Shown here: piece after piece, positions 28,929-52,894 of the stretch | Layout of the letters: every line of letters begins with the position of its first letter | Numbering within the stretch: position 1 is the first letter of the stretch | NCBI GenBank assembly: GCA_944384465.1 | Contig: CALWTK010000006.1 | Location: 1-57,933 of the forward strand | Length of the DNA stretch: 57,933 bases | DNA from: an uncultured Clostridia bacterium | GTDB taxonomy: Bacteria > Bacillota > Clostridia > Christensenellales > UBA1242 | Reading direction: 5' to 3' | Made by a program: the position numbers and the translations under genes | The notes under the pieces: generated by a model | What the model saw: only the letters and a program-made list of their open reading frames with translations | Databases searched by the model: none | Told to the model about the DNA's origin: nothing

Positions 28929-29779
28929 ATGGAATATGTAAAATTAAACAATGGCGTCAAGATGCCAGAACTAGGATTAGGGACTTTCTTACTTTCGCCA
29001 GCCGATGCGGAAAACGCCGTATACAACGCCCTAAAAAGTGGCTATAGATTGATTGATACTGCAAATGCGTATCATAACGAGCGCGCGGTAGGTAGGGGAA
29101 TAAAGAAAAGTGGAGTAAAGAGAGAAGATATCTTTTTGGAGTCAAAATTGTGGCCTACTGTATATACAAAATCTGCTGCTATAGATGAGATGTTAGAAAG
29201 ATTGGGTACACCTTATGTCGATCTACTTTTGTTGCATCAACCTGCAGGTGATTATATTGAAGGTTATAAAATGATGGAAAAGGCGGTGAAAGATGGTAAA
29301 GTGCGAGCTATTGGCGTGTCGAACTTTGAGGGGAAACCACTTGAAGAAATTTTGAAAGTTTGTGAAATCAAACCGTCCGTAATCCAGGTGGAAGCACATC
29401 CATATTATCCACAAACTGAACTTAAAAAGGTTCTAAAAAAATATGATATCAAGATACAAGCGTGGTATCCACTAGGACATGGAGATAAATCACTTATTGA
29501 AGAACCGGTATTCACAAAACTAGCTAAAAAGTACAACAAATCAAATGCTCAAATTATATTACGCTGGCATATTCAGTCAGGGCATATTGTTATTCCGGGC
29601 AGCAAGAATGTGGATCACATCAAAGACAACGCAAACATATTTGACTTTAAATTGACAAAAGAAGAGATGGGGGGGGGAAAATAGACAAATTGGATAAAAA
29701 CAAAAGGTATTATATTCCAAATCCAGATTTGGTGGCTAAATATGCGACTATGGAATTAAATCCAAAATTAGATGTGTAA
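28929..29779 (+). CDS. Aldo/keto reductase (frameshift at G9 tract)
   Basis: NAD(P)H-dependent carbonyl reductase of the AKR family. The catalytic tetrad is visible: Asp and Tyr in DTANAYHNERAVG, Lys in ESKLWP, His in LLLLHQP; GVSNF and QVEAHPYYPQ are family signatures. The open frame stops at 29684 just after nine consecutive G residues (29669-29677). In another frame the rest of the protein is present (KIDKLDKNKRYYIPNPDLVA, ending at 29779) and would be restored with G7 or G10. So about 30 C-terminal residues, which help bind substrate, are lost in this reading. A G9 run is either a phase-variable tract or a sequencing artefact. Confidence 0.85.
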
Positions 29780-29836
29780 ATATTTTTATCTGTGAATTAA
29801 ATCTAATAAATAAAATTAAATTGAAAAGGAGAAATT

Positions 29837-30579
29837 ATGAAAGTATTGGAAAATAAAGTGGCGGTGGTAACAGGAGGAAATTCTGGGATTGGTAAAGCGA
29901 TTGCACTGCGATTTGCTAGCGAGGGAGCGAAAGTGCTAATTGTCGGTAGAAAAGAAGAGACTCTAAAAGATGTAGCTAAAGAAAACAAGAACATCTCTTA
30001 TCTTACCGGAGATATAACAAATTCTAACGTCGTAAAAGAAATAGTCGCGAAATTGAAAAAGGACCACAAAGGCAAACTAGATATTCTAGTAAACAACGCC
30101 GGTTGGTGTCCAGTGCAACCAATAACCGAAATCACAGTTGAAGATTATGACAGAGTATTTAATCTAGATGTGAGAGCAGTTGTAGATTTGACTACTCAAG
30201 CTCTACCTATGATTATAAAATCAAAAGGGAATATTATAAATTTGTCCAGCGTAGGAGCTACTCACCCTGCAGCTAACCTTTCAATGTATGTCGGAGCTAA
30301 AGCTGCCATTGAAAACTTCACTAGATCATGGGCACTTGATTTGGCAGGGTATGGAGTGAGAGTAAATGCTATTGCCCCAGGGGCAATTGATACTAATATT
30401 TGGAATGCTACCGACCTATCAAAAGAGACGCTAAAAAGCATAGAGATGGCATTGCAGCGACCATTCCTTTCAAACGTTTTGGTCGTCCAGAAGAAGTAGC
30501 TAACGTTGCTCTATTCTTGGCGAGCAGTGAAGCTAGTTATGTGAGCGGTTCAGTGTATGCCGTAGATGGCGGAGAGTGA
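29837..30579 (+). CDS. Short-chain dehydrogenase/reductase (frameshifted)
   Basis: NAD(P)-dependent classical SDR. It shows the Rossmann motif [12 protein letters not shown], the catalytic Ser in INLSSVG and Tyr/Lys in YVGAK (YxxxK), then APGAIDT. The frame from the ATG stops at 30499, ending in an unrelated tail after SIE. One base missing near 30445 explains this: the other frame reads [20 protein letters not shown] and then [20 protein letters not shown] family ending up to TGA at 30577-30579. The intact protein would be about 247 residues, normal for the family. It ends one base before the first long direct repeat. Confidence 0.8.
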
Positions 30580-30580
30580 G

Positions 30581-30731
30581 GGATTTGAAGCCCCTGAGTA
30601 GAACTCAAAACACTATAAAATAGAGGGCTTTAGACAATTACGCTACTCAACCTCTACTCAGTTTACCAACATTTTGAATCAAAATTTACAACACACATAA
30701 TCCACAGGTCAATTTGACTTGTGGATTTTTT
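30581..30731 (+). repeat. Long direct repeat, copy 1 (left end of module)
   Basis: About 150 bases, directly repeated at 42137-42289. Over the first 128 bases only six differ. It contains TGAGTAG (30595-30601) and two direct CTACTCA motifs (30642-30648, 30654-30660); the first and last form the inverted repeat CTGAGTAG / CTACTCAG. AAGCCC and GGGCTT form another possible stem. It ends with a terminator, ATCCACA / TGTGGAT plus six T (30700-30731). The two copies flank an 11.4-kb AT-rich gene module, as attachment sites would. Confidence 0.85.
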
Positions 30732-30811
30732 GTTAAAAAACATCTAAAACAACCGGTTAAAATCAGGTATTTTCAATTAAAAGATAAAAACCGTTGAAAA
30801 AATATTAAAAA

Positions 30812-30841
30812 TTGCTTGTTGTTTTTAGGGTTTTGTGATAT
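30812..30841 (+). promoter_or_regulatory. Probable promoter of the biosynthetic operon
   Basis: TTGCTT (30812-30817), an 18-base spacer, TGATAT (30836-30841). AAGGA (30851-30855) lies eight bases before the first ATG. The match is moderate. Confidence 0.4.
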
Positions 30842-30863
30842 CCTTGATGTAAGGAAATGAAAA

Positions 30864-32192
30864 ATGAAAGAAACATTTAATAATAATAAATTTATAAAGT
30901 TGCAAAAAGAATCAATTAACGGATTGATAAATTCAACTAAAGGTAGAGTCTATTTAGAGATTGGGGGAAAATACTTTGATGATTTACATGCTTCTAGAGT
31001 ACTGGCAGGGTATAGTCCTGAAAATAAAAGAAATATTATCAATTCAATTGATTGTGATAAAGAATTTATTTTATGTGTTAGCGCAAGGAGTATAACAAAA
31101 AGAAAGAAAAGAAGAGATAATAAATTATTATATATTGATGAATGCTATAGAATGATTGATTTATTACAGAAGGACAATCACAAGGTATCTGTTGTAATAA
31201 CTATGTATAAAGAAACCCCAACGATAGCAAAGTTTAAAGAAACACTCTCAAAATTAAATGTTCCTATATTTAAAAATTTTATAATTGAAGACTATCCTAA
31301 AATTGACAGAAATTTAGCCTTCTCACAATTTTTAAAAAATGATTATGTTAAATGTAATTCAAAATTGGTTTGTGTGATTGCTCCTGGTCCAAATTCTGGT
31401 AAGTTTTCAACATGTATTTCACAAATCATAAATGAAAAAGCAAATAATAATTTAGCTATTTATAGAAAAATAGAAACATTCTTGGTCCCTGAATTAAGTT
31501 TAGATCATCCAATAAACTTGGCTTGTTCGGCAGCAATGGCAGATGTTTCAAGTGAAGATGTTATAGATGAACGATATTACAAAGAATACGGTAAAATGAT
31601 GTCTGTAGATAGCAGAGATTTGCAGGCGTTTGAGTTGTTGTATCCAATAATCAAGGAAGCAGATATAGAAGTGAAATCTTTGTCAGATACATTTATAAAC
31701 AATATATATAATTGTATAACAGATTTAGAAACGGCCAAATCTCATGCGATTAAAGAAATAAACAGGAGATATAAGGAAGCTGTATCACATTATAAATCAG
31801 GTAAATTAAATGCTATTGAATATAAAGAAATTATTAGAATTAAAAATTTAGCAATAAAAGGAAAGGTTTTATCAAAGACCGAAATTGATGCGTTGTTTCA
31901 TAAAACTATAGAATTTTGGGGATTTGATATACAAAGTAATACATTAATAGAAGAATTGGCAGAATTGATAAAAGCCATGGCAAAATATAAACGTGAAGAA
32001 TGTGAAAAAGCTCCTGATGAAATTAAATATAATTTATTGGAAGAAATAGCAGACGTTCATAATATGCTTTATCAAATGGAAGTTTATTTTGGTGAAGATA
32101 AAATTGCTCAAATAAGAGCTGAAAAAGCTTATAGAACAAAGAAACTTTTGGAAAAAGAAATATTAGAAGATAAATTAAATAAAGGAGAGTAG
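30864..32192 (+). CDS. DUF1846-MazG fusion protein
   Basis: A 442-residue two-part protein. Residues 25-320 match the DUF1846 (UPF0371) family: VYLEIGGKYFDDLHASRVLAGY (in part) and VIAPGPNSGKFSTCISQI with its loop GPNSGK at residues 175-180. DUF1846 has known structures but no assigned function. Residues 345-435 are a MazG-type all-alpha NTP pyrophosphohydrolase: LIEELAELIKA with E364/E367 and LLEEIADVHNML with E394/D397, the metal-binding ExxE and ExxD pairs. MazG enzymes turn NTPs into NMPs and pyrophosphate. The gene starts the operon, one base before the nucleoside-hydrolase-like gene, so it may supply the NMP substrate (inference). I know of no described fusion of this kind. Confidence 0.8.
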   Translation: MKETFNNNKFIKLQKESINGLINSTKGRVYLEIGGKYFDDLHASRVLAGYSPENKRNIINSIDCDKEFILCVSARSITKRKKRRDNKLLYIDECYRMIDLLQKDNHKVSVVITMYKETPTIAKFKETLSKLNVPIFKNFIIEDYPKIDRNLAFSQFLKNDYVKCNSKLVCVIAPGPNSGKFSTCISQIINEKANNNLAIYRKIETFLVPELSLDHPINLACSAAMADVSSEDVIDERYYKEYGKMMSVDSRDLQAFELLYPIIKEADIEVKSLSDTFINNIYNCITDLETAKSHAIKEINRRYKEAVSHYKSGKLNAIEYKEIIRIKNLAIKGKVLSKTEIDALFHKTIEFWGFDIQSNTLIEELAELIKAMAKYKREECEKAPDEIKYNLLEEIADVHNMLYQMEVYFGEDKIAQIRAEKAYRTKKLLEKEILEDKLNKGE

Positions 32193-32193
32193 T

Positions 32194-32655
32194 ATGAAGG
32201 TTTTTTTAGCATTGCCATTTTCTCAGTTTTGTGAAAATGATAAAGATGAAGTTGAAGATTGTAACAAATGGTTTTTTCAGGATTTAATAAAAAAAGTTAA
32301 AGAGTTGGGGTTGGAATACTTTTTGGCTCATGAGCGAGAAGACTGGGGTGCAAAATATAAGTCAGCAGAAGAGAGCACATTAATAGATTTTAATGCTATG
32401 AAAACGTCAGATTTAGTAGTTGCGGTACCAGGGAATCCAATTTCTGGCGGTGTGCATATTGAACTTGGTTGGGCAAGCACCATGAATAAAAAAATACTAA
32501 TGTTTTTAGATAAAGATAAAGAATATTCCCCAATGATTGAAGGACTCAATAGCGTAACAGATGTTAAATATTTCTTTTATCAAGAATTGATAAGTATTGA
32601 ATTGATTAATGAAATTATCTCAGCTATTAAGGAGGAATTATGTATAAAAAATTGA
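32194..32655 (+). CDS. Nucleoside deoxyribosyltransferase / NMP N-glycosidase-like enzyme
   Basis: A 153-residue cytoplasmic enzyme of the nucleoside 2-deoxyribosyltransferase fold. It starts MKVFLALPFSQF, has LIDFNAMKTSDLVVAVPG with D73, and GVHIELGWAS with E90, the position of the catalytic Glu in the family; NKKILMFLDKD follows. Relatives include deoxyribosyltransferases and the CMP N-glycosidases MilB and BlsM, which release cytosine in mildiomycin and blasticidin S biosynthesis (established). It follows a MazG-domain protein by one base and precedes a radical SAM enzyme and a glycosyltransferase. The best reading here is base release from an NMP. A true base-exchange transferase cannot be excluded. 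Confidence 0.75.
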   Translation: MKVFLALPFSQFCENDKDEVEDCNKWFFQDLIKKVKELGLEYFLAHEREDWGAKYKSAEESTLIDFNAMKTSDLVVAVPGNPISGGVHIELGWASTMNKKILMFLDKDKEYSPMIEGLNSVTDVKYFFYQELISIELINEIISAIKEELCIKN

Positions 32656-33644
32656 TAGATCTGAATTTGTTAAAAGATAAATCAAATTATCCTATATACG
32701 CATTTTTATCAATATCTAATATTTGTAATGCAAATTGTATTTTTTGCGACGTGCACGAGAATAAATGTTTCAAAACTTGTATTGATGTATATTCAATTTT
32801 AGATCAAATGAAAGAAATTGGAATTAAGTATGTGCATTTCACAGGTGGCGGAGAACCTTTCGCAAATAAAGAAATTTTTGATTTTATGGAACATGCTTCA
32901 AAACTTGGTTTAAACATTATATTCCTATCTAATGGTATTGCACTTAATGAAGAAAAAATTGATAAGATTTCGCAATACAATATTAAAGCAATTTTCTTTT
33001 CATTAGATAGTCATTTAAAAGAAGTTCATAATGAAATTAGAGGAGTTCCTGGTTGCTTTGAAAATTTAAGTAAGGTAATCAATTTGTGTAAAAATAAAAT
33101 GCCTAATATTCCTATTACTATAAATCATGTGTTGAGCAATAGAAATTTGGATTATTTAAAGGATTTTATAGATTTAAAAGATGAGGTTGGTTACGATTAT
33201 TTAAATCCTATAATTGTTAAAGAGTGTCCTGAATATTATTTTAGTAAAGATCAGATAAAAAAATTCAATCAAGAAAAATCGGAAATAATGGAATTGGCTA
33301 AAAACAAAAATGTTGAGTTCTTATATGATGATATAAATTATTTTGAAGAAAATCAATATTTTGATGATGGATCTGATTTGAGAAAGAATCAAGTAAAATG
33401 CAAAATTCCTAATTATACTTGTTTTATAGATTGTGTTTCAGGCAATGTTTATCCATGTGATTGTTGTTGCCATAGAGATCAAGAATATTATTCATATGGT
33501 TCATTAAAAAATAACACATTAAAACAATTGTTTGATGCTAATAGATTCAAAGAAATACAAGAAGAATTAAATGGTAGATGCTCATTGTGTAAAAGTAAAT
33601 GTGATTATGCGAATGTTGAATTTAATAAATTTATTGGAGAATAA
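32640..33644 (+). CDS. Radical SAM enzyme with C-terminal Cys cluster (SPASM-like)
   Basis: A 334-residue radical SAM protein. The cluster motif CNANCIFC gives C29, C33 and C36; HFTGGGEPFANKEI is the SAM-binding GGE region. The C-terminal 75 residues hold many cysteines (YTCFIDC, YPCDCCC, CSLCKSKC), as in SPASM/twitch proteins that carry auxiliary [4Fe-4S] clusters. It overlaps the upstream gene by 16 bases, so it is translationally coupled. In blasticidin S biosynthesis a radical SAM enzyme (BlsE) decarboxylates cytosylglucuronic acid; in butirosin BtrN oxidises an aminocyclitol. Either type of sugar chemistry would fit; the substrate is inference. Confidence 0.85.
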   Translation: MYKKLIDLNLLKDKSNYPIYAFLSISNICNANCIFCDVHENKCFKTCIDVYSILDQMKEIGIKYVHFTGGGEPFANKEIFDFMEHASKLGLNIIFLSNGIALNEEKIDKISQYNIKAIFFSLDSHLKEVHNEIRGVPGCFENLSKVINLCKNKMPNIPITINHVLSNRNLDYLKDFIDLKDEVGYDYLNPIIVKECPEYYFSKDQIKKFNQEKSEIMELAKNKNVEFLYDDINYFEENQYFDDGSDLRKNQVKCKIPNYTCFIDCVSGNVYPCDCCCHRDQEYYSYGSLKNNTLKQLFDANRFKEIQEELNGRCSLCKSKCDYANVEFNKFIGE

Positions 33645-34751
33645 ATGAAAATATTGTTTTTAACTGAAAATTTTGGATATGGTCCAGTTTCAACGATGTG
33701 TGAAATTGTTAAAAAGTTTAAAGAATTGCATTCTAATTTGGAATATGTTTTTTGGGGCAATTCGCATACGGCAGAAATATGTAAAAAATCCAACCTTTTT
33801 GACAATGTTTTAATAACAGATTCTTATTCAAGAGAGCAAATAGAGCAAAATAAAAAACTTTTAATGAGTGCGGATAAAATAGTTGCTGTTGAAACAACAG
33901 ATGTTATAGTAAATCTTATTAATTTATACGATTTAAAAAATATTTATTTGGTAGACAATATTTTTTGGTTATGGGATTTTTTAGAGGAAGAATTAAAATC
34001 AATAAAAAAATATTTTGTGTCAACAACTATGCCTGTTGATGAAAATATTAATAGAATAGCTTCTGACTTTAATAATATTGTAAAAGTAGGACCAATTCGT
34101 ACTTTTAGAGAATTTAAATTTTGTAATACAAACAATAACCTAATGATAAGTTTAGGAGGAGCAGAATCTCATGCTTCCGATGAAAACATCGTGTATACAT
34201 ATTATAATAATTTTCTTAAAGTCTTAGATGATTGTGATTTGAAATTTAATAATATATATGTTTGTGGTGGAAAATCTATTGTTAACAAATTAAGTAAAGA
34301 AGTTTATAAACATAATTTTAATTTTATAACATTAAATCGCCCCGAATATTTAAATTTGTTATATAGTTGTTCGCATATTATATCTTCACCCGGAATGGGA
34401 AATTTTAATGAAATTTCCAGTTCAAATATTAAAACGATGTTTTTGTTGCCAATAAACTATAGTCAGTTTTATCAATACGAATATTTTAAATCCCTTAATT
34501 TGGACTTTTATTTTGACAATTTTAATTTTGATGTTGAAATTGAAAAGTATTTAGAAGAAAATGAGGGTGTTAGGCGTGTTTTAGAAAAGTTAAACGAATA
34601 TAATGGTAACAACAATATGATTAATGTAAAAAACAATATTCAAAGGTTTATAGATGACACAAATTTTTTAGAAAAGAGATTAAGTTTTTATAAAGATTTA
34701 GATAAGCAAGCAATAGAAAATATTATTAACCAAATTATAGAGGAGGGTTAA
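33645..34751 (+). CDS. GT-B-like glycosyltransferase, candidate base-glucuronosyltransferase
   Basis: A 368-residue soluble protein with the two-Rossmann GT-B look. The N-lobe begins MKILFLTENFGYGPVSTMCE, and the C-lobe contains NLMISLGGAESHAS, IYVCGGKSI and the donor-binding-type stretch SCSHIISSPGMGNFNEISS. This resembles MurG/UDP-glycosyltransferases and the cytosylglucuronic acid synthases (BlsD, MilC) in outline, but similarity is too low to name the donor by eye. It starts directly at the stop of the radical SAM gene. With the base-releasing enzyme upstream, it may attach a free base to a sugar. No UDP-glucose dehydrogenase is in the module, so any UDP-glucuronate must come from elsewhere. 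Confidence 0.6.
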   Translation: MKILFLTENFGYGPVSTMCEIVKKFKELHSNLEYVFWGNSHTAEICKKSNLFDNVLITDSYSREQIEQNKKLLMSADKIVAVETTDVIVNLINLYDLKNIYLVDNIFWLWDFLEEELKSIKKYFVSTTMPVDENINRIASDFNNIVKVGPIRTFREFKFCNTNNNLMISLGGAESHASDENIVYTYYNNFLKVLDDCDLKFNNIYVCGGKSIVNKLSKEVYKHNFNFITLNRPEYLNLLYSCSHIISSPGMGNFNEISSSNIKTMFLLPINYSQFYQYEYFKSLNLDFYFDNFNFDVEIEKYLEENEGVRRVLEKLNEYNGNNNMINVKNNIQRFIDDTNFLEKRLSFYKDLDKQAIENIINQIIEEG

Positions 34752-34752
34752 G

Positions 34753-35925
34753 ATGATTGTTCCGAGCGATCCGTTTTATGGTTTAAAATATATTAATCAT
34801 AAAGAAAGAAGGCAAGTTAAAAAGGTTATGAACAGTAAAGGTCTTTTTCGTTTTGATGGACCTAAACTTTTAAGAACAACTGAGCTGTTGGAATCAAAAT
34901 TATCATCAATGTTTGACGGAAATGTTTTATGTGTTGATAATGGAACAAGTGCTTTAAAATTATGTTTGGTAGCAAATGAAATTGGGGTTGGTGATGAGGT
35001 TTTAGTACCTTGTTTAAGTTTCATTGCAACGGCATCATCTGTTTTAACTGTAGGTGCATTGCCAGTTTTTGTGGACATTGATGAAACATTTAATGTTGAT
35101 ATTTCAAAAGCGGAAAGTTTGATTACAAAAAAAACAAAAGCAATCGTTGTTGTTCATTTTCAAGGTCAACCATCTAATATAGATGCAATTTTAGAGTTTT
35201 CCAAAAAACATAATTTGATAGTCATAGAAGATGTTGCTCAAGCTTTTGGTGTGAAATATAAAAACAAATACGTTGGAACAATTGGAGATTGTTCAGCTTT
35301 TAGTTTTCAATCAGGAAAAGTTATAACTAGTGGTGAAGGAGGTTTCTTCTACCATAAAGACAATAAGAAATTCGAAAAAGGCAAAAGATATGCAGATTGT
35401 GGCGGTGAACGTCCTTATGATTCATATCCTTCTTGGGATAAAGAATATACAAGTTTTGGAGAAAATTTCAAAATAACAGAAATTCAAAGCGCAATTTTAA
35501 TTGAACAATTAAAAAAAGTTGATAAGATATATAATAAACAAATAAAGAATTACAACTATTTAATTAATAATTTGACAGAGTTTAAAATACGAAAAAAAAG
35601 TAAAGAATCAAAAATTTTCCCAATGAGTTTATGTGTTATTTTTGAAACAGAAAATATTGCGCAAAAGTTTTTACAATATTCTAATGAAAAAGGTATTGAA
35701 TTTTCTTTTAAAGTTGGAAATTTCTTACCAGAATATAACACATTTAAAAACAAAATATCTTGGCAAAAAGATAATTTCCCATATACTAAAGAATATAAGG
35801 TAAATCCTTGTGCTGAAAGTTTAGAACTTTTAAAACGAACATGTTGGTTGAATTTGTCGGCATATTTAAAAAAGAAGCATTTAAAATATATAATCAAAGT
35901 TATGAAGGATTTTATAAATGAATAA
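34753..35925 (+). CDS. DegT/DnrJ/EryC1/StrS aminotransferase (first)
   Basis: A 390-residue PLP enzyme that aminates a keto-sugar or keto-cyclitol, usually from Glu or Gln. PLP Lys is K189 in AFSFQSGKVITSGEGG; D160 in VIEDVAQAFG contacts the pyridine nitrogen; CVDNGTSALKL and LVPCLSFIATASSVL are standard. The SFQ..KVITSGEGG form is closest in style to glutamine:scyllo-inosose-type aminotransferases of aminoglycoside clusters. Length and residues are complete. It lies one base after the glycosyltransferase and overlaps the next gene by eight. The likely role is introducing the amino group on the sugar later acylated by the FemAB-like enzymes. Confidence 0.9.
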   Translation: MIVPSDPFYGLKYINHKERRQVKKVMNSKGLFRFDGPKLLRTTELLESKLSSMFDGNVLCVDNGTSALKLCLVANEIGVGDEVLVPCLSFIATASSVLTVGALPVFVDIDETFNVDISKAESLITKKTKAIVVVHFQGQPSNIDAILEFSKKHNLIVIEDVAQAFGVKYKNKYVGTIGDCSAFSFQSGKVITSGEGGFFYHKDNKKFEKGKRYADCGGERPYDSYPSWDKEYTSFGENFKITEIQSAILIEQLKKVDKIYNKQIKNYNYLINNLTEFKIRKKSKESKIFPMSLCVIFETENIAQKFLQYSNEKGIEFSFKVGNFLPEYNTFKNKISWQKDNFPYTKEYKVNPCAESLELLKRTCWLNLSAYLKKKHLKYIIKVMKDFINE

Positions 35926-36751
35926 TTTTACAAATGATGAATTGTGGAGAAAAATTTTATATTTCAGATATCCATTTGAAAAAGTTTTTTCATCTAAGAA
36001 TCTAGATTTTGTTGATAGGGACGATTTTATTGAATGTAAACAAAATTTTCAAATAAACGTAAATGAAGAAGATTTATTATTGCTGGAAAAACTTTTGGAA
36101 ATGAAAGAAGTTAAATTTAAATATATGGATGAGAATTTTTATAAGTTGATAAAAGACAAATTTACATCTAAATATACTGTTAACATTGATTCCAAATGGG
36201 AAAATCCTATTATAAAAATAGAACAAAACCAACTAAAAGAATATATTGATTCTAAAAATGAAAATATTAAGCGAGATTATAAAAAATATCTTGTAGAAAA
36301 GGAATCTAGCTTATTTTACGACGAAGAGAATAATGATTTTTACGATTTATGGAAAAATATATTGTTTATTGATCAAAGTTCGTGGAAAAAAACAGAAGAA
36401 ACAGATATGATGAATCTGGAATATGAGCATTTGCAATATATGTTTTTCTGTTTAAAAGATGCTAAATATTATGTGGATATAATGTGTGATAAAAATAAAG
36501 AACCTATTGGATATTCATTAATGTTTGAATATGATAATATTTTGTATGCAGCCAAATGGGGAGCAACAGATGAGGGAAGAAAACACAAAGCAGGAATAGT
36601 ATGTTTCTTTAGACAATTGGAACGATTAAGTAAAAATAGAAACATTGTGATCGACACTTGGTCTAGAAATAATCTATTTTTTGAAAAAATTTCAAATGAA
36701 GGTATTGCAAGAATTAATTTAACATTAAGGAGAAAAAATGGAAATAACTAA
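35918..36751 (+). CDS. FemAB/GNAT-like acyltransferase (first)
   Basis: A 277-residue protein of the GNAT-fold Acetyltransf_6/FemAB-like group. The conserved core includes FYDLWKNILFIDQSSWKK (residues 141-158), then YYVDIMCDKNKEPIGYSLMFEYDNILYAAKWGATDE and the C-terminal FFRQLERL segment. Proteins of this group transfer acyl or aminoacyl groups, some from aminoacyl-tRNA. The start overlaps the aminotransferase by eight bases, and the end overlaps the next, related acyltransferase by 14. In a peptidyl-nucleoside pathway it would add an amino acid or acyl chain to the new amino group (inference; BlsK is a tRNA-dependent precedent). Confidence 0.65.
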   Translation: MNNFTNDELWRKILYFRYPFEKVFSSKNLDFVDRDDFIECKQNFQINVNEEDLLLLEKLLEMKEVKFKYMDENFYKLIKDKFTSKYTVNIDSKWENPIIKIEQNQLKEYIDSKNENIKRDYKKYLVEKESSLFYDEENNDFYDLWKNILFIDQSSWKKTEETDMMNLEYEHLQYMFFCLKDAKYYVDIMCDKNKEPIGYSLMFEYDNILYAAKWGATDEGRKHKAGIVCFFRQLERLSKNRNIVIDTWSRNNLFFEKISNEGIARINLTLRRKNGNN

Positions 36752-37697
36752 AGTTGGAATTAATGAAATTCATAATTTAGATGAACTTATAGATATATCT
36801 GATAATGGTACGGCATTTTGTTATAACTATTTTTTAAAATTAAAAAAAGTAAAATATCTATTAAAGATAGAAGAAGATGATAAACTATTATGTTTGTTTC
36901 CTTTATTTGAAAATGGTTCAAAAGTTGAACAAAGCACAATGTATGTTCCGTATGGTGGACCTGTTTTGTTCATAAATAAATATTCATATAGAAGAGCTGT
37001 TTTGTTACAAAGACAGATTATATATGAATTAATAAAATATTTACAAAACCATTATGAAGAAATCTGCTTTTCTTGTGATACTTCCATGACAGATGTGAAA
37101 TCATTTGTGAATTTAAAAATTGTTCCTGAAGTTAGATATACATATAAAATTGATTTAACTCAAACTTTGGAAGAAATAGTTAATAATTTTAGTAAAGATC
37201 GAAAAAAAGATTTAAGGAAAGCTAAAAAATATTATCTTGAATTGATATTTGATGATAACTTGCAATTATTTGATGTTAATAAAGCGTTAATTTGGGAGAG
37301 TAAATATGGAGAAGAATCATCAACAAACTTTGTTGAAGAATATTTAAAAGAATCAATAAAAAATAGCAAAGGAAAGATTTTTGTTGCAAAATATAATCAA
37401 GAAATTGTTGGTGGTGTTGCAATAGTTTGGGATAACAACTCTGCTTATATAATGTATTCGTATTATAATCATGATCTAGATATTTCAACTATACCATTTT
37501 TATATAATGCAATTATATCTTATTTAAAAAATGAAACAAATTGTAAATATTTAGATTTCGAAGGTTCAGTTTTTGAAGAAATAGAAAAATGGAATTTGTC
37601 TTTTGGGGCAAAACAATGGCTGTATTTTAATTACTATTGGCAGAAAAACAATTCGGAAGAAATTTTTAAAGATTTGTATGATTATGGAGAAAAGTAA
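36738..37697 (+). CDS. FemAB/GNAT-like acyltransferase (second)
   Basis: A 319-residue protein of the same superfamily. Diagnostic segments are the first-domain MYVPYGGPVLFI, the central FSKDRKKDLRKAKKYYLEL (the Lys/Arg-rich helix typical of FemAB/BioF2-like proteins), and GKIFVAKYNQEIVGGVAIVWDNNSAYIMYSYYN followed by LDFEGS. It is more typical than its upstream neighbour and not a recent copy of it. Two acyltransferases side by side suggest two acylation steps, or a dipeptide side chain (inference). It overlaps the second aminotransferase by one base. Confidence 0.75.
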   Translation: MEITKVGINEIHNLDELIDISDNGTAFCYNYFLKLKKVKYLLKIEEDDKLLCLFPLFENGSKVEQSTMYVPYGGPVLFINKYSYRRAVLLQRQIIYELIKYLQNHYEEICFSCDTSMTDVKSFVNLKIVPEVRYTYKIDLTQTLEEIVNNFSKDRKKDLRKAKKYYLELIFDDNLQLFDVNKALIWESKYGEESSTNFVEEYLKESIKNSKGKIFVAKYNQEIVGGVAIVWDNNSAYIMYSYYNHDLDISTIPFLYNAIISYLKNETNCKYLDFEGSVFEEIEKWNLSFGAKQWLYFNYYWQKNNSEEIFKDLYDYGEK

Positions 37698-38653
37698 TGA
37701 ATTTGGAAATGTTAAAGAAAAAATATAATTTACCTAATGTTTTGTTTTGCAAATCAGGTTCAAAGTGTTTTACTGAAATCTTTAGGAGTGTTAGGCATAA
37801 TGATTATGATGAAGTTATTGTGCCAGTAACATTATGCTATTCTGTTATTAAAGAAATAATAAAAGCTAAATTAATTCCAGTTTTTGTTGATATTGATAAA
37901 AATTTTCAAATATCAATTAATGAAATTCAAAGAGAAATTACAGAAAAAACAAAAGCAATTATTTACGTTAATCAATATGGATACTTGCAAAATTATAACT
38001 CAATTCGTTTCAAAAATAAGAAAGGAGAACCAGTAATTAACATTTTAGATAATGCTCAATGTTCTTTGCAATCTTATGATAGAAATTTTGATTATATAGT
38101 TTATTCATTTAACAAAGGAAAACCAATTACTGTTGATGGCGGATTAGGAATGTTAATTTCAAATCATAATTTACAAATTAAAGATTGTAATAATCATGCA
38201 AATGTAGATTTTACAAAATTGGATAACTTCTCTTCGAGCTTTCAAAAAAGAGTGAGTATTGCAAATATAATTAAAAAAACATTGGGTTCTCAGTGGGAGT
38301 TTGTGAATTTAGAAAATTCTTCAATGTATAGATTAGTTTGTTATAAAAAAGAATTTAATAAAAAATCTTTTGGTAAATTTGAAAATGATTTATACGCGTT
38401 TCAAAAAATAAATAATATGAATATTTGTCAAACAACAATTGATGTGGCACCTTTTCAAAGACAAAATGTTAAACAATACATAAAAAAGCACACAAATCGT
38501 GTGCCTAAAAATCAAAAAGATTTTATAAATTACAATAATCTTGCATCTCAAACTTTATATTTTAAAATTTATGAAAATATATATGAATTAGACTATAAAA
38601 AGATTTGCAAATATATTTTAGATTATAAATATAATTCAATAAGTAGAATGTAA
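37697..38653 (+). CDS. DegT/StrS-type aminotransferase (second, divergent)
   Basis: A 318-residue PLP-fold protein, 70 residues shorter than the first aminotransferase. The catalytic elements are kept: K142 in VYSFNKGKPITVDGG, D118 in NILDNAQCS, and VIVPVTLCYSVIKEIIKAKLIPVFVDID. The C-terminal small domain is reduced and Lys/Asn-rich, and the usual GEGG is replaced by VDGG. It may be a second aminotransferase, a DegT-type dehydratase or a regulatory partner of the first. It is the last gene of the operon; its end overlaps the convergent phosphotransferase gene by 31 bases. Confidence 0.75.
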   Translation: MNLEMLKKKYNLPNVLFCKSGSKCFTEIFRSVRHNDYDEVIVPVTLCYSVIKEIIKAKLIPVFVDIDKNFQISINEIQREITEKTKAIIYVNQYGYLQNYNSIRFKNKKGEPVINILDNAQCSLQSYDRNFDYIVYSFNKGKPITVDGGLGMLISNHNLQIKDCNNHANVDFTKLDNFSSSFQKRVSIANIIKKTLGSQWEFVNLENSSMYRLVCYKKEFNKKSFGKFENDLYAFQKINNMNICQTTIDVAPFQRQNVKQYIKKHTNRVPKNQKDFINYNNLASQTLYFKIYENIYELDYKKICKYILDYKYNSISRM

Positions 38654-39384
38654 TATTCTACTTTTTCTTTATTATGAGCAATTCCTAAATGTTCAAAAAA
38701 CATATCTACATATTTTTCATCTTCAAAATTTCGTCTAATAGATTTTACAGTAATGGCAATATCAAACCACTTATCTGCACATCCACATTCACCAACATCT
38801 AAGAAACCAGAAATTTTGCCATCTTTTTGGAATATGTTTGGAAGGCTTGTATCTCCGTGTGAAAAGCAAAGTTCTTCTTTAGGTTTGTTGTTAATTAAAA
38901 ATTTATAAATTTGTTCGTATGATCCAAATTTTTTAAAATAATCAGAATCATTGGCTTGATCAAGTAGATTATTATCAAGATTATATTTTGCTGTTGCTAA
39001 TTTATGATCTAAATCTGAAGCAAGAGGACAAGAAGTGTAATCTATTGTTTGCAATAATCTTATGGCATCGGCTGCCAATTTTACTATTTGTTCAGGGTAA
39101 TCCCAAAGATCGTCGCAACACAACATTTCTCCTTGCAATTTCTCGGTTAGCATAAAACTTTTATTTTGATGGGTTGAAAAATAGACAACTTTAGGAACAT
39201 TAATTTTGCCATCTAGCCAATTAAGTGCTAAATATTCTTTGTCTAATAATCCCGCTGTAGATTCTTTTAAAAAATATTCTTTATTATCTTTTAAAATTCT
39301 AGTAACTTTAGCTCCTGAACAACCAATATCTATATATTCAAGTTCAGAATTTGTTAAAAATTCTTGTATTTCTTTTGGGTACAT
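38623..39384 (-). CDS. APH(3')-like aminoglycoside/nucleoside phosphotransferase
   Basis: A 253-residue small-molecule kinase with the eukaryotic-kinase-like fold. The Brenner motif is CFSHGDTSLPNIF with catalytic D178 and N183; the metal Asp is D196 in SGFLDVG; the ATP Lys is K40 (FLK). The C-terminal part (ADKWFDIAITVKSIRR, then YVDMFFEHLGI and YYILLIELYL) closely resembles APH(3')-IIIa, which phosphorylates the 3'-OH of kanamycin-type drugs. In producers, such kinases give self-resistance or make a phosphorylated inactive precursor. It is 15 bases from the PHP gene on the same strand, so kinase and phosphatase are co-transcribed, opposite to the biosynthetic operon. Confidence 0.85.
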   Translation of the reverse strand: MYPKEIQEFLTNSELEYIDIGCSGAKVTRILKDNKEYFLKESTAGLLDKEYLALNWLDGKINVPKVVYFSTHQNKSFMLTEKLQGEMLCCDDLWDYPEQIVKLAADAIRLLQTIDYTSCPLASDLDHKLATAKYNLDNNLLDQANDSDYFKKFGSYEQIYKFLINNKPKEELCFSHGDTSLPNIFQKDGKISGFLDVGECGCADKWFDIAITVKSIRRNFEDEKYVDMFFEHLGIAHNKEKVEYYILLIELYL

Positions 39385-39398
39385 ATTTCTCCTTTTAT

Positions 39399-40298
39399 TT
39401 AATCTTGTGATATTATTAAATTTGGATCTAAAACCAGTTTGTGATCTAAAAGGTAATCTAGTAAACTACAATTTGTTTTACATAAGTTATAATCAATACC
39501 GAAACCGGGAAGTTTGTTGTCTTCATCTATAATATGAAAGTCTGAACCTACAGATTGAAGTAATCCAAAATATTCAGCCAAACTTTGGTTATAGAAAATT
39601 GTAGAATCATCAAATTCTGAATAATACACTTCAATTCCCATTAGACCTTTACTTTTTGCTTTTTTTATAAAATTAAATAGTTGTTCTTCTGTGAAATTGA
39701 TTTTTTGAGGATGTGCTAAAACAGGAATTCCTCCCGCTTCACGAATTAGTTTAATTGCTTTAAAAACATCTATTTCATATCCTTCATATTCTGGTAAAAA
39801 CTCTTTAGCGATGGCAACAAAAGATATTATAAATTCATTATCAAAATCATTCTTTTTTAAACATTTTTTAAATTCTGTAACAATGCTATTATAGTTTTCA
39901 AGTCTCACTTGCTTATAGATGCATTGAGGAACAGTGGTGCCAGACTTTTCTATTTTTGAAAGTAATTGCATATTATTTTCGTAACGGTTTTGTCTAAATC
40001 TTAACATCTCTTGTTTTAGCGGTTCGTAATTATGATCAATACCATAACCTAGGATATGAATATAATAATCTTTTCCGTTTTCGTCGTAATAAACTGTTGA
40101 CAATTCTACCCCGGGAATAAAAATAATATCTTCTATATTTAATTTTAATAATTTTTTTATTGATCGTAAATCATCGTGATCGGTTATAGCGGCAAATTTG
40201 GTGTTGGTATGTCGGAACAATTCAATTAATTGTTCTATGTTCTTATCTCCGTCGCTAAATCTAGAATGACAATGTAGATCAATAAAGTTGTGTTTCAT
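39399..40298 (-). CDS. PHP-domain phosphoesterase (TrpH/RNase AM-like)
   Basis: A metal-dependent phosphatase of about 299 residues. PHP metal-site motifs in order are DLHCHSRFSDG, AAITDHDDL, IPGVELST, VLAHPQK and GSDFHIIDED. The family includes RNase AM/TrpH, which hydrolyses nucleotide bisphosphates and short RNA 5' phosphates, and histidinol phosphatases. I choose the ATG at 40298 rather than 40304: the -10 box (40305-40310) would put the transcript start near 40298, so the message is probably leaderless. Paired with the APH-like kinase downstream, it may remove the protective phosphate during product release (inference). Confidence 0.85.
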   Translation of the reverse strand: MKHNFIDLHCHSRFSDGDKNIEQLIELFRHTNTKFAAITDHDDLRSIKKLLKLNIEDIIFIPGVELSTVYYDENGKDYYIHILGYGIDHNYEPLKQEMLRFRQNRYENNMQLLSKIEKSGTTVPQCIYKQVRLENYNSIVTEFKKCLKKNDFDNEFIISFVAIAKEFLPEYEGYEIDVFKAIKLIREAGGIPVLAHPQKINFTEEQLFNFIKKAKSKGLMGIEVYYSEFDDSTIFYNQSLAEYFGLLQSVGSDFHIIDEDNKLPGFGIDYNLCKTNCSLLDYLLDHKLVLDPNLIISQD

Positions 40299-40304
40299 AA
40301 TCAT

Positions 40305-40372
40305 ATTATAACATATATTTAAAATTTGTCAATAAGTCAAGTATTGACAAAAGTGCAAATTTGTTATATAAT
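40305..40372. promoter_or_regulatory. Back-to-back divergent promoters with shared palindrome
   Basis: Plus strand, for the ABC-F gene: TTGACA (40344-40349), 17 bases, TATAAT (40367-40372). Minus strand, for the PHP and kinase genes: TTGACA (40327-40332), 16 bases, TATAAT (40305-40310). Both -35 boxes lie in a perfect inverted repeat TTGTCAATA-N7-TATTGACAA (40326-40350), so one regulator could control all three self-protection genes. Confidence 0.8.
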
Positions 40373-40389
40373 AACAACGGAGATAAAAA

Positions 40390-42102
40390 ATGATTATTTT
40401 AGATGTTAATAAATTATCTAAAAATTTTGGATATGGACAACTTTTCGAAGATGTCTCTTTTTCTCTTAATGAAGGAGAGTCTATATCAATTGTAGGTCCA
40501 AATGGTTGTGGTAAATCAACACTTTTAAGAATGATTGCGGGTGTAGAACGTGCAGATAAAGGTGTTGTTAATATTAAAAAGGGTGCAAGTGTTGCTTATC
40601 TAGATCAAACTTCTGCAGATAGAGTGGACAATAGAATTGTTTTTGATGTTATTAAAGATGTGTTTGTGGAAATCAACGAACTTGCTGCAAGAATGAAAAA
40701 ATACGAAGATATTATGGCAAATCCATCATCACAAGAAGAATATGACAAAGCATTGGAAAGATATTGCCGAGTTATGGAGGAATTTTCAAATAAAGGTGGA
40801 TATGATATAGATGTACAAATAAACACAGTATGTAATGGTTTGAAAATAAGTGAAACTATGTTATATCAAGAATATTCAACTTTGAGTGGTGGAGAAAAAA
40901 CCTTGGTACAATTGGCAAAAGCCTTGTTGCAAAAACCAGAATTGATTTTGCTTGATGAACCGACAAACCACTTGGATATTGAAAGAATTGAGTGGCTTGA
41001 AGATTATATTAAAAGTTTTAAAGGCGCAAGCGTTATTGTATCGCACGATAGATATTTCCTAGATAAAATGTCAACAAAAATTCTAGACCTATCAGGTATT
41101 GAACCAAAAGTTTATAATACTAATTACACTGGTTATTTAGAAGAAAGGGAAAGAGATTTTGAAAAGCAAATGGCAGCCTATGCTGATCAACAATTAATCA
41201 TAAAAAGGCTTCAAGAGCAAATTAAATATTTTGCGGAAAGGGGTATGGCAACAAATAGCTCAACCCTTTGTAATAGAGCCCATGCTTTACAATCTCAATT
41301 GGATAGAATTTTAGCAAGAAAGATTGAAAGGCCACAAGAGCAAAAAAATATAAAAATTGGATTCAATGAAGAAAGAAAATCAAGCAAAAGAGTTTTTGAA
41401 ACTAAGGATCTGGTAGTAACTGCTCCGGATGGAAGAAGAATTTTAAATGGTGTGGATTTAACAATCACTTCTGGAGAAAGAATTGCTTTAATAGGTTCCA
41501 ATGGAAGCGGTAAATCTACTTATGTTAAAACATTACTTGGTTTGCAATCTCTGGAACATTCCGGCGAAGTTGTTATGGGGCCAAGTGTTAAGGTTGGATA
41601 TCTTCCACAAATTATCAGTTTTGAAAACGATAATCAAACATTATTGGAATGTTTTAAATATGAAACAGCCGTTCATGAGCAGCGCGCTCGCCAAATTTTA
41701 GCAGCTTTTCAATTTTACAAAGAAGATGTTAATAAAATGGTAAAGAACTTATCTGGCGGTGAAAGGATAAGACTTCGCTTAGCCAGTTTGTTGCAACAAA
41801 ATGTGAACTGCCTAGTGTTTGATGAACCCACAAACCATATTGACATACCAACTAAGGAAGTTTTAGAAAAAGCAATAGAAGATTTTGATGGAACGGTGAT
41901 ATTTGTTTCACACGATCGTTATTTTATCAATAAGTTTGCCGAAAAAACTATCGAATTTGATGGTGGAAAAATTGTTGTTTATAATGGTAACTATGAGTAT
42001 TATAAACATTTAAAGAAAAAGTTGGCAGAACAACCAAAAGTGCAAACAAAAAGTAAAAAAAACACCAAAATAAGTAATATAGATTCTGGATTTACAATTT
42101 AA
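40390..42102 (+). CDS. ABC-F ATPase (candidate ribosome-protection protein)
   Basis: A 570-residue soluble protein with two ABC domains and no membrane part. Domain 1 has GPNGCGKST, LSGGE and LILLDEPTNHLD; domain 2 has GSNGSGKST, NLSGGERIRLRLASLL and LVFDEPTNHID. The inter-domain linker (about residues 240-320, QIKYFAERGMATNSSTL) is the part that reaches the ribosome's peptidyl-transferase centre. Some ABC-F proteins are antibiotic-resistance factors (Vga, Lsa, OptrA; Ard1 in the A201A producer), others are housekeeping translation factors. Its place in this module argues for self-resistance. The promoter is a perfect consensus. The C-terminal 25 residues are Lys-rich. Confidence 0.9.
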   Translation: MIILDVNKLSKNFGYGQLFEDVSFSLNEGESISIVGPNGCGKSTLLRMIAGVERADKGVVNIKKGASVAYLDQTSADRVDNRIVFDVIKDVFVEINELAARMKKYEDIMANPSSQEEYDKALERYCRVMEEFSNKGGYDIDVQINTVCNGLKISETMLYQEYSTLSGGEKTLVQLAKALLQKPELILLDEPTNHLDIERIEWLEDYIKSFKGASVIVSHDRYFLDKMSTKILDLSGIEPKVYNTNYTGYLEERERDFEKQMAAYADQQLIIKRLQEQIKYFAERGMATNSSTLCNRAHALQSQLDRILARKIERPQEQKNIKIGFNEERKSSKRVFETKDLVVTAPDGRRILNGVDLTITSGERIALIGSNGSGKSTYVKTLLGLQSLEHSGEVVMGPSVKVGYLPQIISFENDNQTLLECFKYETAVHEQRARQILAAFQFYKEDVNKMVKNLSGGERIRLRLASLLQQNVNCLVFDEPTNHIDIPTKEVLEKAIEDFDGTVIFVSHDRYFINKFAEKTIEFDGGKIVVYNGNYEYYKHLKKKLAEQPKVQTKSKKNTKISNIDSGFTI

Positions 42103-42127
42103 AAATGGCACGCTGTGTCATTTTTTT
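42101..42127 (+). terminator. ABC-F terminator
   Basis: AAAAATGGCAC-GCT-GTGTCATTTTT stem-loop (one G-U pair), overlapping the stop codon and followed by T residues. Confidence 0.6.
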
Positions 42128-42136
42128 GTAGGTGAT

Positions 42137-42289
42137 GGATTTGAAGCCCATGAGTAGAATTCAAAACACTATAAAATAGAGGGTTTTAGACAATTACGCT
42201 ACTCAACCTTTACTCAGCTTACCAACATTTTGAATTAAAATTTACAACACACATAATCCACAGGTTAATTTTAACCTGTGGGTTTTTTT
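42137..42289 (+). repeat. Long direct repeat, copy 2 (right end of module)
   Basis: Second copy of the element at 30581-30731, same orientation. TGAGTAG (42151-42157) and CTACTCA (42198-42204) are kept; the last motif is TTACTCA. Its terminator stem, CCACAGGTTAA / TTAACCTGTGG (42258-42281), differs from copy 1 at several bases but stays fully paired, so the hairpin is under selection or is a rewritten transcript end. The module between the copies is 11.4 kb. Confidence 0.85.
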
Positions 42290-42317
42290 ATATTTGTAAA
42301 TAAAAAGTTTAAATAAA

Positions 42318-42370
42318 TTTTACAAAATTTGTAAAAAATACTTTACAAAAAATGTAAAGTATGTTAATAT
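42318..42370 (+). promoter_or_regulatory. Two palindromic operators and promoter of the HTH-OLD pair
   Basis: TTTTACAAA-A-TTTGTAAAA (42318-42336) and ACTTTACA-N5-TGTAAAGT (42340-42360) are two perfect inverted repeats sharing the half-site TTTACA. The second covers a -35 element TTTACA (42342-42347), 17 bases before TAATAT (42365-42370). The adjacent HTH protein is the obvious repressor. Confidence 0.7.
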
Positions 42371-42399
42371 GTCATTGAAAAAGAAAAAGGAGGATGAGT

Positions 42400-42885
42400 A
42401 TGTTGCGCAATAGATTAAAGAATATGGATCTGCGGATCACAGAGTTGGCAGACTATATGCAAGTGTCAAGACCAACTATGTATAAATTTATTGAGTATTA
42501 TGAAAATTCATCATTTGATCTCATAAATAGAAAAACACTAAAGTTGTTCAATTACATTGTTGAAAACGAGCTGGCAGGTAAGAAGAATGTTATAAATTAT
42601 ATACTAAATAACCTAGTTGAACTTAAAGAAATGGGTGATGGTGAAGAAAAAGACTTCATAAAGAGTATGAAAAAATTCATAGTGTCTAATCCAGAATCTA
42701 AAAAGAGTAAGTTTATTGAATATTGTGTTTTGAAGAATACTTTTGATGATATTATTTATTATTTAATGGAGATAAAGGACTTATTAAATAAACGAAAATT
42801 AATGGATGATGAAGCTGAGTCATTAAAGATGTACAAAGAGTTTTTAATAAAAATTGAAGAATTTAACAAAAGAAAAGGAGAATAA
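42400..42885 (+). CDS. HTH regulator partner of an OLD-type ATPase
   Basis: A 161-residue protein. Residues 8-35 (KNMDLRITELADYMQVSRPTMYKFIEYYEN) form a helix-turn-helix of the phage-repressor type; the remaining 120 residues are helical and charged, without a known domain. I start at the ATG at 42400 because AAGGAGG ends at 42393; the ATG at 42394 touches the ribosome site. It lies two bases before the OLD-type gene, with two palindromes in front of its promoter. The likely role is autorepression of a toxic defence effector, possibly also sensing (inference). Confidence 0.75.
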   Translation: MLRNRLKNMDLRITELADYMQVSRPTMYKFIEYYENSSFDLINRKTLKLFNYIVENELAGKKNVINYILNNLVELKEMGDGEEKDFIKSMKKFIVSNPESKKSKFIEYCVLKNTFDDIIYYLMEIKDLLNKRKLMDDEAESLKMYKEFLIKIEEFNKRKGE

Positions 42886-42887
42886 TT

Positions 42888-44750: not shown

Positions 44751-44793
44751 TACAACTTGTAGAATATTAGTCAGGTTTACATAAAATAAAATT

Positions 44794-44820
44794 CACAAGT
44801 AAATTTGCTTGTGGATTTTT
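44794..44820 (+). terminator. Terminator after the OLD gene
   Basis: CACAAG / CTTGTG stem with TTTTTT tail. The 3' part (CTTGTGGATTTTTT) is the same as in the terminator of direct repeat copy 1. Confidence 0.65.
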
Positions 44821-44841
44821 TATTCTTACAAACAACTTGAT

Positions 44842-44870
44842 TTGACATAAATCTTTTCGGGTTGTATAAT
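44842..44870 (+). promoter_or_regulatory. Consensus promoter
   Basis: TTGACA (44842-44847), a 17-base spacer, TATAAT (44865-44870): a perfect consensus, in front of the ADP-ribosylglycohydrolase gene. Confidence 0.8.
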
Positions 44871-44905
44871 ATGAGCAATTGACAATGTTTATATGTGAGG
44901 TGGTA

Positions 44906-45745: not shown

Positions 45746-45797
45746 ATTGTTACATAATATTAGATTTTTTTAATGATTTAGTTGAATAAATATACAA

Positions 45798-45831
45798 ATC
45801 TACGGGTTTATATGTCTCGTGGATTTTTTTT
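45798..45831 (+). terminator. Terminator after the ADP-ribosylglycohydrolase gene
   Basis: ATCTACG / CGTGGAT stem (one G-U pair) and eight T. It ends in CGTGGATTTTTT, similar to the other module-border terminators. Confidence 0.6.
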
Positions 45832-45840
45832 AAGTGAGGG

Positions 45841-45869
45841 TTTACAATTAGTGATTTTTATGATATACT
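45841..45869 (+). promoter_or_regulatory. Promoter of the small gene before the helicase
   Basis: TTTACA (45841-45846), a 17-base spacer, TATACT (45864-45869). Confidence 0.5.
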
Positions 45870-45897
45870 TATAAAACAAAAAACAAAAGGATGAAAT

Positions 45898-46215: not shown

Positions 46216-46259
46216 TTTTATAACAATTACAAAATCAAAAGATAAAAGGAAACTAGTTA

Positions 46260-47273: not shown

Positions 47274-47284
47274 TATCAGAATTT

Positions 47285-50935: not shown

Positions 50936-51007
50936 TAAATATTTATTATTCAAAGTTATATATCTTTTTATAATTTCTATGATAATTATTAAAACAAAGG
51001 AGTTAAG

Positions 51008-52831: not shown

Positions 52832-52838
52832 TATATAG

Positions 52839-52865
52839 ACAGCAAATATTATGTTTGCTGTTTTT
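52839..52865 (+). terminator. Terminator after the DUF262 gene
   Basis: ACAGCAAA / TTTGCTGT stem with a seven-base loop and T-rich tail. Confidence 0.7.
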
Positions 52866-52894
52866 ATTTGATGAATTATATGATTTCATCCAGT

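Follow-up and report, generated by a model that had tools for sequence, protein, structure and literature searches.

Gougerotin contains an amino sugar that bears a short peptide. It is described as sharing a cytosylglucuronic acid (CGA) core with blasticidin (PMC5572114), and mildiomycin uses MilB, MilC, the DegT protein MilD, MilG and MilH, a putative tRNA-dependent aminoacyltransferase (PMC11784345). A further family, which includes Sbb17/Sba18, Orf11 (BD-12) and PacB, aminoacylates antibiotic precursors via aminoacyl-tRNA (PMC12945691). The described clusters of this chemistry that we met are from Streptomyces and relatives; literature titles and abstract openings gave no such cluster outside actinomycetes, a search in which subscription journals were not covered and absence is not proven, and in a Brevibacillus paper the term "peptidyl nucleoside" occurs in the reference list only. 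Here we describe an 11.4-kb cassette (positions 30864-42102) in a 57,933-nucleotide stretch (positions 1 to 57,933, forward strand) of contig CALWTK010000006.1, assembly GCA_944384465.1, which was analysed as a whole and is called the window below. It belongs to an uncultured Clostridia bacterium of the Christensenellales (UBA1242) with a genome of ~1 megabase (97.7% complete). We consider it probable that this cassette makes an aminoacylated cytosyl-aminohexose nucleoside, likely ribosome-inhibiting, as a variant of the blasticidin/mildiomycin kind.

All genes named in the initial annotation of the window were borne out as reading frames. The reading-frame list places the first eight, A to H, on the + strand, where adjacent genes overlap or are separated by a few bases. 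The kinase-phosphatase and ABC-F genes had been described as convergent with this operon, which is right for I and J; K is instead divergent from J. The genes are as follows.

A, 30864-32192, + strand: DUF1846 N-terminal domain plus MazG-like nucleoside triphosphate (NTP) pyrophosphohydrolase
B, 32194-32655, + strand: predicted cytidine monophosphate (CMP) N-glycosidase, 153 residues
C, 32640-33644, + strand: BlsE-like radical S-adenosylmethionine (SAM) enzyme with a Cys-rich C-terminal region
D, 33645-34751, + strand: GT-B glycosyltransferase, remote CGA-synthase relative
E, 34753-35925, + strand: DegT/DnrJ/EryC1/StrS aminotransferase
F, 35918-36751, + strand: FemAB-like protein, conserved, weakly assigned
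G, 36738-37697, + strand: FemABX fold, predicted aminoacyl-tRNA-dependent amide ligase
H, 37697-38653, + strand: short second DegT protein
I, 38623-39384, - strand: kinase of the aminoglycoside 3'-phosphotransferase, APH(3'), family
J, 39399-40304, - strand: PHP phosphatase
K, 40390-42102, + strand: ABC-F ribosome-protection-like protein

The four core enzymes are related by sequence to Bls proteins: B to BlsM, C to BlsE, D to BlsD and E to BlsH. For this comparison we used 11 of the 20 annotated proteins around a bls-type cluster on a plasmid of Kitasatospora sp. NBC_00039; the record itself names blsE, blsF, blsG and CGA synthase, and the labels BlsM, BlsD and BlsH were assigned in this analysis. 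At an E-value of 1, the profiles of B, C, D and E each matched the cognate Kitasatospora protein alone (B the N-glycosidase at 1.5e-41, C BlsE at 2.2e-23, D the CGA synthase at 3.3e-6 and E the DegT protein at 5.8e-60), and the Kitasatospora DegT protein scored 2.4e-51 against E. The link through D is the weakest of the four: hhalign gave 75.8% (2.3e-5) for D and the Kitasatospora CGA synthase, compared with 0.1-0.2% for two control proteins, and the D orthologue of locus L016 found the same synthase by BLAST at 3.3e-8 with 18% identity. The profiles of F, G, I and J had no match among the 11 proteins, and no relation to F or G was apparent for an unnamed protein of 626 residues encoded in the Kitasatospora cluster. 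The window cassette thus resembles the blasticidin S type in its CMP N-glycosidase, CGA-synthase-like glycosyltransferase, BlsE-like radical SAM enzyme and DegT aminotransferase, but lacks the arginine 2,3-aminomutase, the carboxylate-amine ligase and the major facilitator superfamily exporter and has FemABX-type genes instead, together with APH(3'), in a genome without a uridine diphosphate (UDP)-sugar dehydrogenase. In the Kitasatospora cluster, an ABC ATP-binding protein (L078:1-505) adjoins the CGA synthase gene.

The 153-residue protein B had been likened to BlsM and MilB, and it does group with them: its closest solved structures are CMP N-glycosidases, namely PDB 4jen (7.2e-30), BlsM 5vto (6.5e-24) and MilB 4jem (2.4e-23). 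It keeps six of seven published MilB residues (F9, E49, D65, S84, G86 and E90, equivalent to MilB F22, E62, D78, S97, G99 and E103), and the published FL(G/A)(G/A)PFxxL(L/V/T) motif is retained in part as FLALPFSQFC. With these solved homologues and active-site residues, B is predicted to be the CMP N-glycosidase expected in a cluster of this kind. The position of MilB Arg23 is occupied by Ser10 in B, and hydroxymethyl-CMP enzymes have Arg or Lys there. Because of this serine and because the window has no MilA-type CMP hydroxymethylase, plain cytosine is the predicted base. Both features distinguish the window from mildiomycin, as do the host and the resistance genes; the likeness to MilB, MilC, MilD, MilG and MilH (PMC11784345) is one of role, with a sequence comparison for MilB alone. 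A B relative in Streptomyces microflavus has no comparable cluster around it, and an Embleya record is unannotated at the corresponding place.

Upstream of B, the first gene had been annotated as MazG. This holds for a part of A at approximately 31863-32189, which is fused behind a DUF1846 domain (PF08903, 1.6e-74). EExxE and ExxD, which we take to be the MazG motif, are invariant in an alignment with three relatives, and two stand-alone orthologues of this part match PHROG 2245, nucleoside triphosphate pyrophosphohydrolase, at 5.9e-26 and 1.8e-24. The part itself has no Pfam match at 0.01, matches MazG only below cut-off when E-values up to 10 are allowed, and found nothing meaningful in a PDB sequence search. 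The DUF1846-MazG fusion is shared with locus L002, and L016 and L017 carry the MazG part alone.

For C, the best PDB match is cytosylglucuronate decarboxylase 7vob (2.5e-17 by sequence, 1.7e-21 by profile), and residues C29, C33, C36 and GGGEP are invariant among four aligned proteins, that of the window included. D has the GT-B fold, and its closest curated family is the CGA synthase family TIGR04467. A PDB sequence search with D gave nothing meaningful; its profile reaches two proteins named cytosylglucuronate synthase (P0059 at 9.1e-49 and P0060 at 4.2e-47). By sequence comparison, D is therefore best described as a remote relative of CGA synthase, and of the earlier proposal that it belongs with BlsD and MilC the profile link stands, whereas the TIGR04467 cut-off is missed. 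E matches PF01041 at 1.2e-74, with perosamine synthetases as the best solved matches and 2-deoxy-scyllo-inosose aminotransferase also found, and by its family is the DegT aminotransferase of a blasticidin/mildiomycin-type cluster. Neither the 153-residue protein nor the glycosyltransferase grouped with unrelated families.

The initial annotation also listed two FemAB/GNAT-like proteins, of which G is upheld and F is weakly assigned. The structure model of G has the FemABX double-GNAT fold, the nearest structures are the aminoacyl-tRNA-dependent ligases Sbb17, FemX and FemA, and the best Foldseek match is Sbb17 with streptothrisamine, at an identity to Sbb17/Sba18 of ~11-14%. G has no direct Pfam match to PF02388, but a profile-profile comparison with this FemAB family gave 95.1% (3.2e-8), and all 10 of the weak G-profile matches that we checked in other genomes were PF02388 FemAB proteins. 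From the modelled fold, G is predicted to be an aminoacyl-tRNA-dependent amide ligase like Sbb17/Sba18, Orf11 (BD-12) and PacB; the difference from Sbb17/Sba18 is that the acceptor for G would be a cytosyl-aminohexose. PDB sequence searches with F and G found nothing meaningful. Two divergent clusters have D fused behind a region that resembles F (85.7% by hhalign), in proteins of 697 and 699 residues (L074:10915-13008 and L075:11484-13583). H matches PF01041 at 1.1e-16, and its SFxKxKPI stretch, whose lysine is presumably the pyridoxal phosphate lysine of DegT proteins, is invariant among four aligned proteins. H possibly supplies or installs a second amine.

The genes that follow are of the resistance type. 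The kinase label of I could be refined to APH(3'), since I scores 233.7 bits against NCBIfam NF033068 (cut-off 205); its relatives score 215.6, 198.8 and 193.9 bits, so two of the four tested, the window included, exceed the cut-off. I also matches the aminoglycoside 3'-phosphotransferase structure 2bkk at 3.3e-53. J matches PF02811 at 2.2e-10 and the nucleoside bisphosphate phosphatase family NF041577 at 3.7e-33, which is below that family's cut-off. K and the two other ABC-F proteins tested all exceed the NF000355 cut-off of 380 bits (451.8 for K, 475.1 and 455.8). Drugs that target the ribosome are what the APH(3') and ABC-F families act on, and resistance through kinase/phosphatase prodrugs occurs in other clusters. 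From these neighbouring resistance-type genes we infer that the product is an antibiotic. I would then confer self-resistance by phosphorylation, and J would handle the phosphorylated product or serve in nucleotide clean-up.

BlsE has reportedly been reassigned as a dehydratase, with a 4'-keto-3'-deoxy sugar as its product. In the pathway that we propose, A would convert CTP to CMP, B would release cytosine from CMP, and D would glycosylate the cytosine with a hexose taken from a nucleotide sugar. Radical chemistry by C on the sugar would then give a 4'-keto (perhaps 3'-deoxy) sugar, the ketone of which E would convert to an amine. This amine would be acylated by G, and probably also by F, with amino acids drawn from aminoacyl-tRNA, which would make a non-ribosomal peptide synthetase (NRPS) unnecessary, and H may supply or install the second amine. 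Within the cell, the product would be held in phosphorylated form by I, J would deal with this form, and protection of the ribosomes would fall to K. We infer these reactions, as well as the sugar donor, the compound made, its target and the self-resistance, by joining the gene assignments with the mildiomycin scheme of PMC11784345 and the BlsE work of PMC3715490. The likeness to gougerotin is drawn from a pathway description, not from cluster sequence, and serves as a lead.

The sugar donor separates this locus from the known systems. No sugar-nucleotide dehydrogenase had been recognised by the initial annotation, and indeed UDP-sugar dehydrogenase PF03721 has no match anywhere in the window genome. 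The family is over cut-off in two of two Paenibacillus genomes and in 13 of 14 control genomes; among the small genomes there is one sub-cut-off fragment, in G1016. Since none of the four small genomes tested, the window's included, exceeds the cut-off, self-made UDP-glucuronate is unlikely as donor and cytosylglucuronate itself is unlikely as an intermediate, which sets the window cluster apart from blasticidin and mildiomycin. The simplest alternative would be a neutral hexose. GalU and GlmU models are also over cut-off in none of the four small genomes, a weak test because the controls pass in 5 and 9 of 14, respectively. In G000, G797 and G1016 (L023-L025), GlmU matches are strong over the C-terminal half only, in frames of 210-242 residues. 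The window genome encodes a glucose-1-phosphate cytidylyltransferase (contig C2:141343-141939, L019; 366.8 bits, cut-off 300.25), so it may be able to make cytidine diphosphate (CDP)-glucose.

We then asked where else the gene set occurs. Searches with D found the window genome alone among 148 relatives and among 398 genomes of the phylum, two of 391 genomes of the class and three of 309 of the family, the window genome being counted in each; no listed genome of the same genus has it. Scanning genome contigs for D gave three loci: L002, in a Bacilli genome from goat rumen, and two in Paenibacillus. L002 contains the complete set of eight genes in the window's order and, in addition, an extra aminotransferase, PHP, APH and ABC-F, and L016 and L017 have the eight genes too, with MazG standing alone. 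Searching 386 genomes of the family of L002 with G gave 63 with a match, of which 9 were strong (that of L002 included), 3 intermediate and 51 weak. The resulting 15 small-genome loci are the window, L002, L016, L017 and L066-L076, the last 11 being picked by G; L072 and L067 are on short contigs that cut through the gene set. Across the 15 loci, B is present in 14, C in 13, D in 14, E in 14, G in 15 and H in 14, F stands alone in 12 and is represented by the region fused to D in 2 more, and the resistance-type genes are found in 12 (APH), 14 (PHP) and 11 (ABC-F). The NTP pyrophosphohydrolase slot is occupied by MazG in six loci and by the unrelated Ham1 in three, a replacement that favours a real step of nucleoside monophosphate supply, as judged from gene families. 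A methyltransferase is added in six loci. The gene set is retained even where its arrangement differs. As gene content and a large part of the gene order recur in other genomes, the cassette is more than a chance assembly; conserved co-occurrence of the operon genes had been named as support at the outset.

In Paenibacillus periandrae (L003) and P. faecalis (L004), B, C, D and E are present, as in the window, and lie within ~4-8 kb, but no relatives of F, G, I or J were found there by BLAST or profile, and these genomes have a UDP-sugar dehydrogenase. The neighbours at L003:12392-20439 and L004:12820-18209 are otherwise different and by eye include a kinase-like, an arginase-like and ATP-grasp or HPr-kinase-like proteins. 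L074 and L075 represent a divergent cluster type; the L074 radical SAM protein matches BlsE at 5.1e-54, with the next family at 1.5e-29. Both loci also encode proteins of 363 and 360 residues (L074:13459-14550 and L075:14034-15116) with HFGT and KLSKS stretches, seen by eye, and no family match. By sequence, these stretches resemble the HIGH and KMSKS signatures of class I aminoacyl-tRNA synthetases. We rejected phage or plasmid cargo: tblastn at 1e-3 against phage (50,697) and plasmid (72,556) records found no D relative, and none of the 18 viral stretches with a match to a D pattern encodes D.

Several observations weigh against the nucleoside antibiotic assignment, the main lines of which, as first proposed, are otherwise sustained. 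C and D fall below the curated cut-offs, C with 83 bits (2.2e-23) against a cut-off of 400 for the BlsE family TIGR04466 and D with 18 bits against 300 for TIGR04467; another radical SAM family in NCBIfam scores C at 79 bits, the C orthologue of L068 scores other families higher, and BLAST at 0.01 with the window D matched no Kitasatospora protein. The missing UDP-glucuronate route and the improbable cytosylglucuronate described above count on the same side. F matches FemAB_like PF04339 at 0.007, below cut-off, hhalign of F gave nothing with FemAB (0.2%), with G or with controls, and the F profile misses the region fused to D by hmmsearch. No exporter is recognised in the cassette, and no NTP pyrophosphohydrolase was seen in six of the 15 loci. 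In L076 we saw none of C, F, APH and ABC-F, although its contig ends beside the set, which makes true absence uncertain. Finally, the correlation of pairwise distances among the loci for C, D, E, F and G (r 0.84-0.93, 11-13 loci) counts in favour of the assignment, and B correlates with these five (0.70-0.77) and I and K with the core (0.75-0.87, 9 loci each), but the correlations leave out the divergent loci and L072 and can also arise from common descent, and those of J with the core are lower than the others (0.49-0.64).

A first alternative is a cytosine nucleoside product that does not inhibit the ribosome, such as a bacimethrin-like antimetabolite, a signal or a cofactor, with APH and ABC-F serving another purpose. 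The best solved match of B, the CMP N-glycosidase 4jen, is presumably the Clostridium enzyme of bacimethrin synthesis, and a plasmid of Priestia megaterium encodes a B relative (41.9% identity) together with a thymidylate synthase, the surrounding 16 kb carrying no annotated glycosyltransferase or FemAB. In contrast, the window cluster has no thymidylate-synthase-like gene, residue 10 of B is not the Arg or Lys of hydroxymethyl-CMP enzymes, the glycosyltransferase, DegT, FemABX-type and radical SAM genes recur in 14, 14, 15 and 13 of the 15 loci, and the two resistance families target ribosome drugs. We therefore regard this alternative as rather unlikely.

A second alternative accepts the nucleoside pathway but takes I, J and K for a drug-resistance module that was acquired independently and adjoins it by chance; we consider this decidedly improbable. 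APH(3') and ABC-F genes are common as mobile resistance genes, the module has strong promoter-like sites of its own in the window, and the distances of J track the core less well. Against this stand the recurrence of APH, PHP and ABC-F across the 15 loci, their persistence under varying gene order and, with common descent not excluded, the correlated distances of I and K. Moreover, all four loci without ABC-F (L016, L066, L072 and L076) are on contigs that end beside the set.

It is highly unlikely that the operon serves to add an aminoacylated amino sugar to a cell-wall precursor or surface glycan. Such pathways do include DegT, GT-B and FemAB proteins, E has perosamine synthetases as its best solved matches, and the fold of G is common to FemA and FemX. 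However, both sequence and active site mark B as a CMP N-glycosidase, the curated family closest to D is CGA synthase, neither a flippase nor a polymerase nor a second glycosyltransferase is recognised in the cassette, and no set of glycan genes stood out in the loci that carry the resistance-type genes. The possibility that homologous operons lie in capsule loci, raised at the outset, was not borne out in any of 17 loci (the window, 14 small-genome and 2 Paenibacillus), as judged by BLAST to the window genes and by eye.

That C marks a viperin-like antiviral nucleotide system has a practically negligible likelihood: PADLOC viperin models do match C (1.1e-19 and 2e-18), as does a viperin chain in the PDB profile search (2.2e-7), but BlsE scores better (TIGR04466 2.2e-23 versus 3e-15 for viperin; 1.7e-21 versus 2.2e-7 in the PDB), C alone of 10 proteins matches in PADLOC, through its radical SAM core, with no defence family for the other 9, and free cytosine production has no place in the viperin pathway.

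If the cassette does make an aminoacylated cytosyl-aminohexose antibiotic, NRPS-free compact clusters in small-genome bacteria would make animal microbiota a source of ribosome inhibitors that has yet to be tapped, such clusters may hold a native substrate for APH(3')-type kinases, and the cluster would offer testable enzymes in the cytosine glycosyltransferase and the radical SAM/aminotransferase pair. More tentatively, and with somewhat less than an even chance in our view, these loci may form a separate class of ribosome-directed cytosyl-aminohexose antibiotics that are assembled by FemABX proteins with aminoacyl-tRNA on a non-glucuronic sugar in producers with ~1-megabase genomes; since the defence kinases of these producers belong to the APH(3') aminoglycoside-resistance family, the clusters would then be a native home of that family.

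Three further features concern the layout of the cassette.

Left direct-repeat copy, 30576-30731, no strand: 157-column repeat just outside A, with a terminator-like hairpin at 30699-30727
Divergent promoter region, 40305-40372, no strand: two sigma-70 sites, each 12 of 12, one directed to J-I and the other to K
Right direct-repeat copy, 42132-42288, no strand: just outside K, with a terminator-like hairpin at 42255-42284

The two repeat copies, which are 92.4% identical over 157 columns, bracket the cassette and have no further copies within the window. A 15-mer of the left copy occurs exactly twice in the window, where 0.15 matches are expected with up to two mismatches. Ten other loci, each compared with itself, have no repeat around the cluster. 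The bracketing repeat and the absence of the cluster from same-genus genomes suggest an inserted cassette, of which the repeat copies are possible insertion or recombination ends. The GC content is 24-27% over 32001-40000, compared with 31-44% in 2-kb steps of 1-30000, but the downstream region (26-30% over 42001-56000) is nearly as AT-rich as the operon, so composition alone is not distinctive. The sites in the J-K gap are the only two 12 of 12 sigma-70 consensus matches in the promoter scan; the total of 86 promoter-like sites is not enriched over the 81.4 expected from shuffled sequence. No Rfam match for an RNA element was found in 29000-43000 at an E-value of 1. Upstream of the cassette, a short-chain dehydrogenase frame at 29837-30580 has an unusual tail and looks broken by eye. 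Downstream, 42394-56976 has the look of a defence island, with genes that appear by eye to encode an AAA ATPase, an ADP-ribosylglycohydrolase, a large helicase, a DUF262-like protein, an AbiE-like pair and a type I methyltransferase-like protein.

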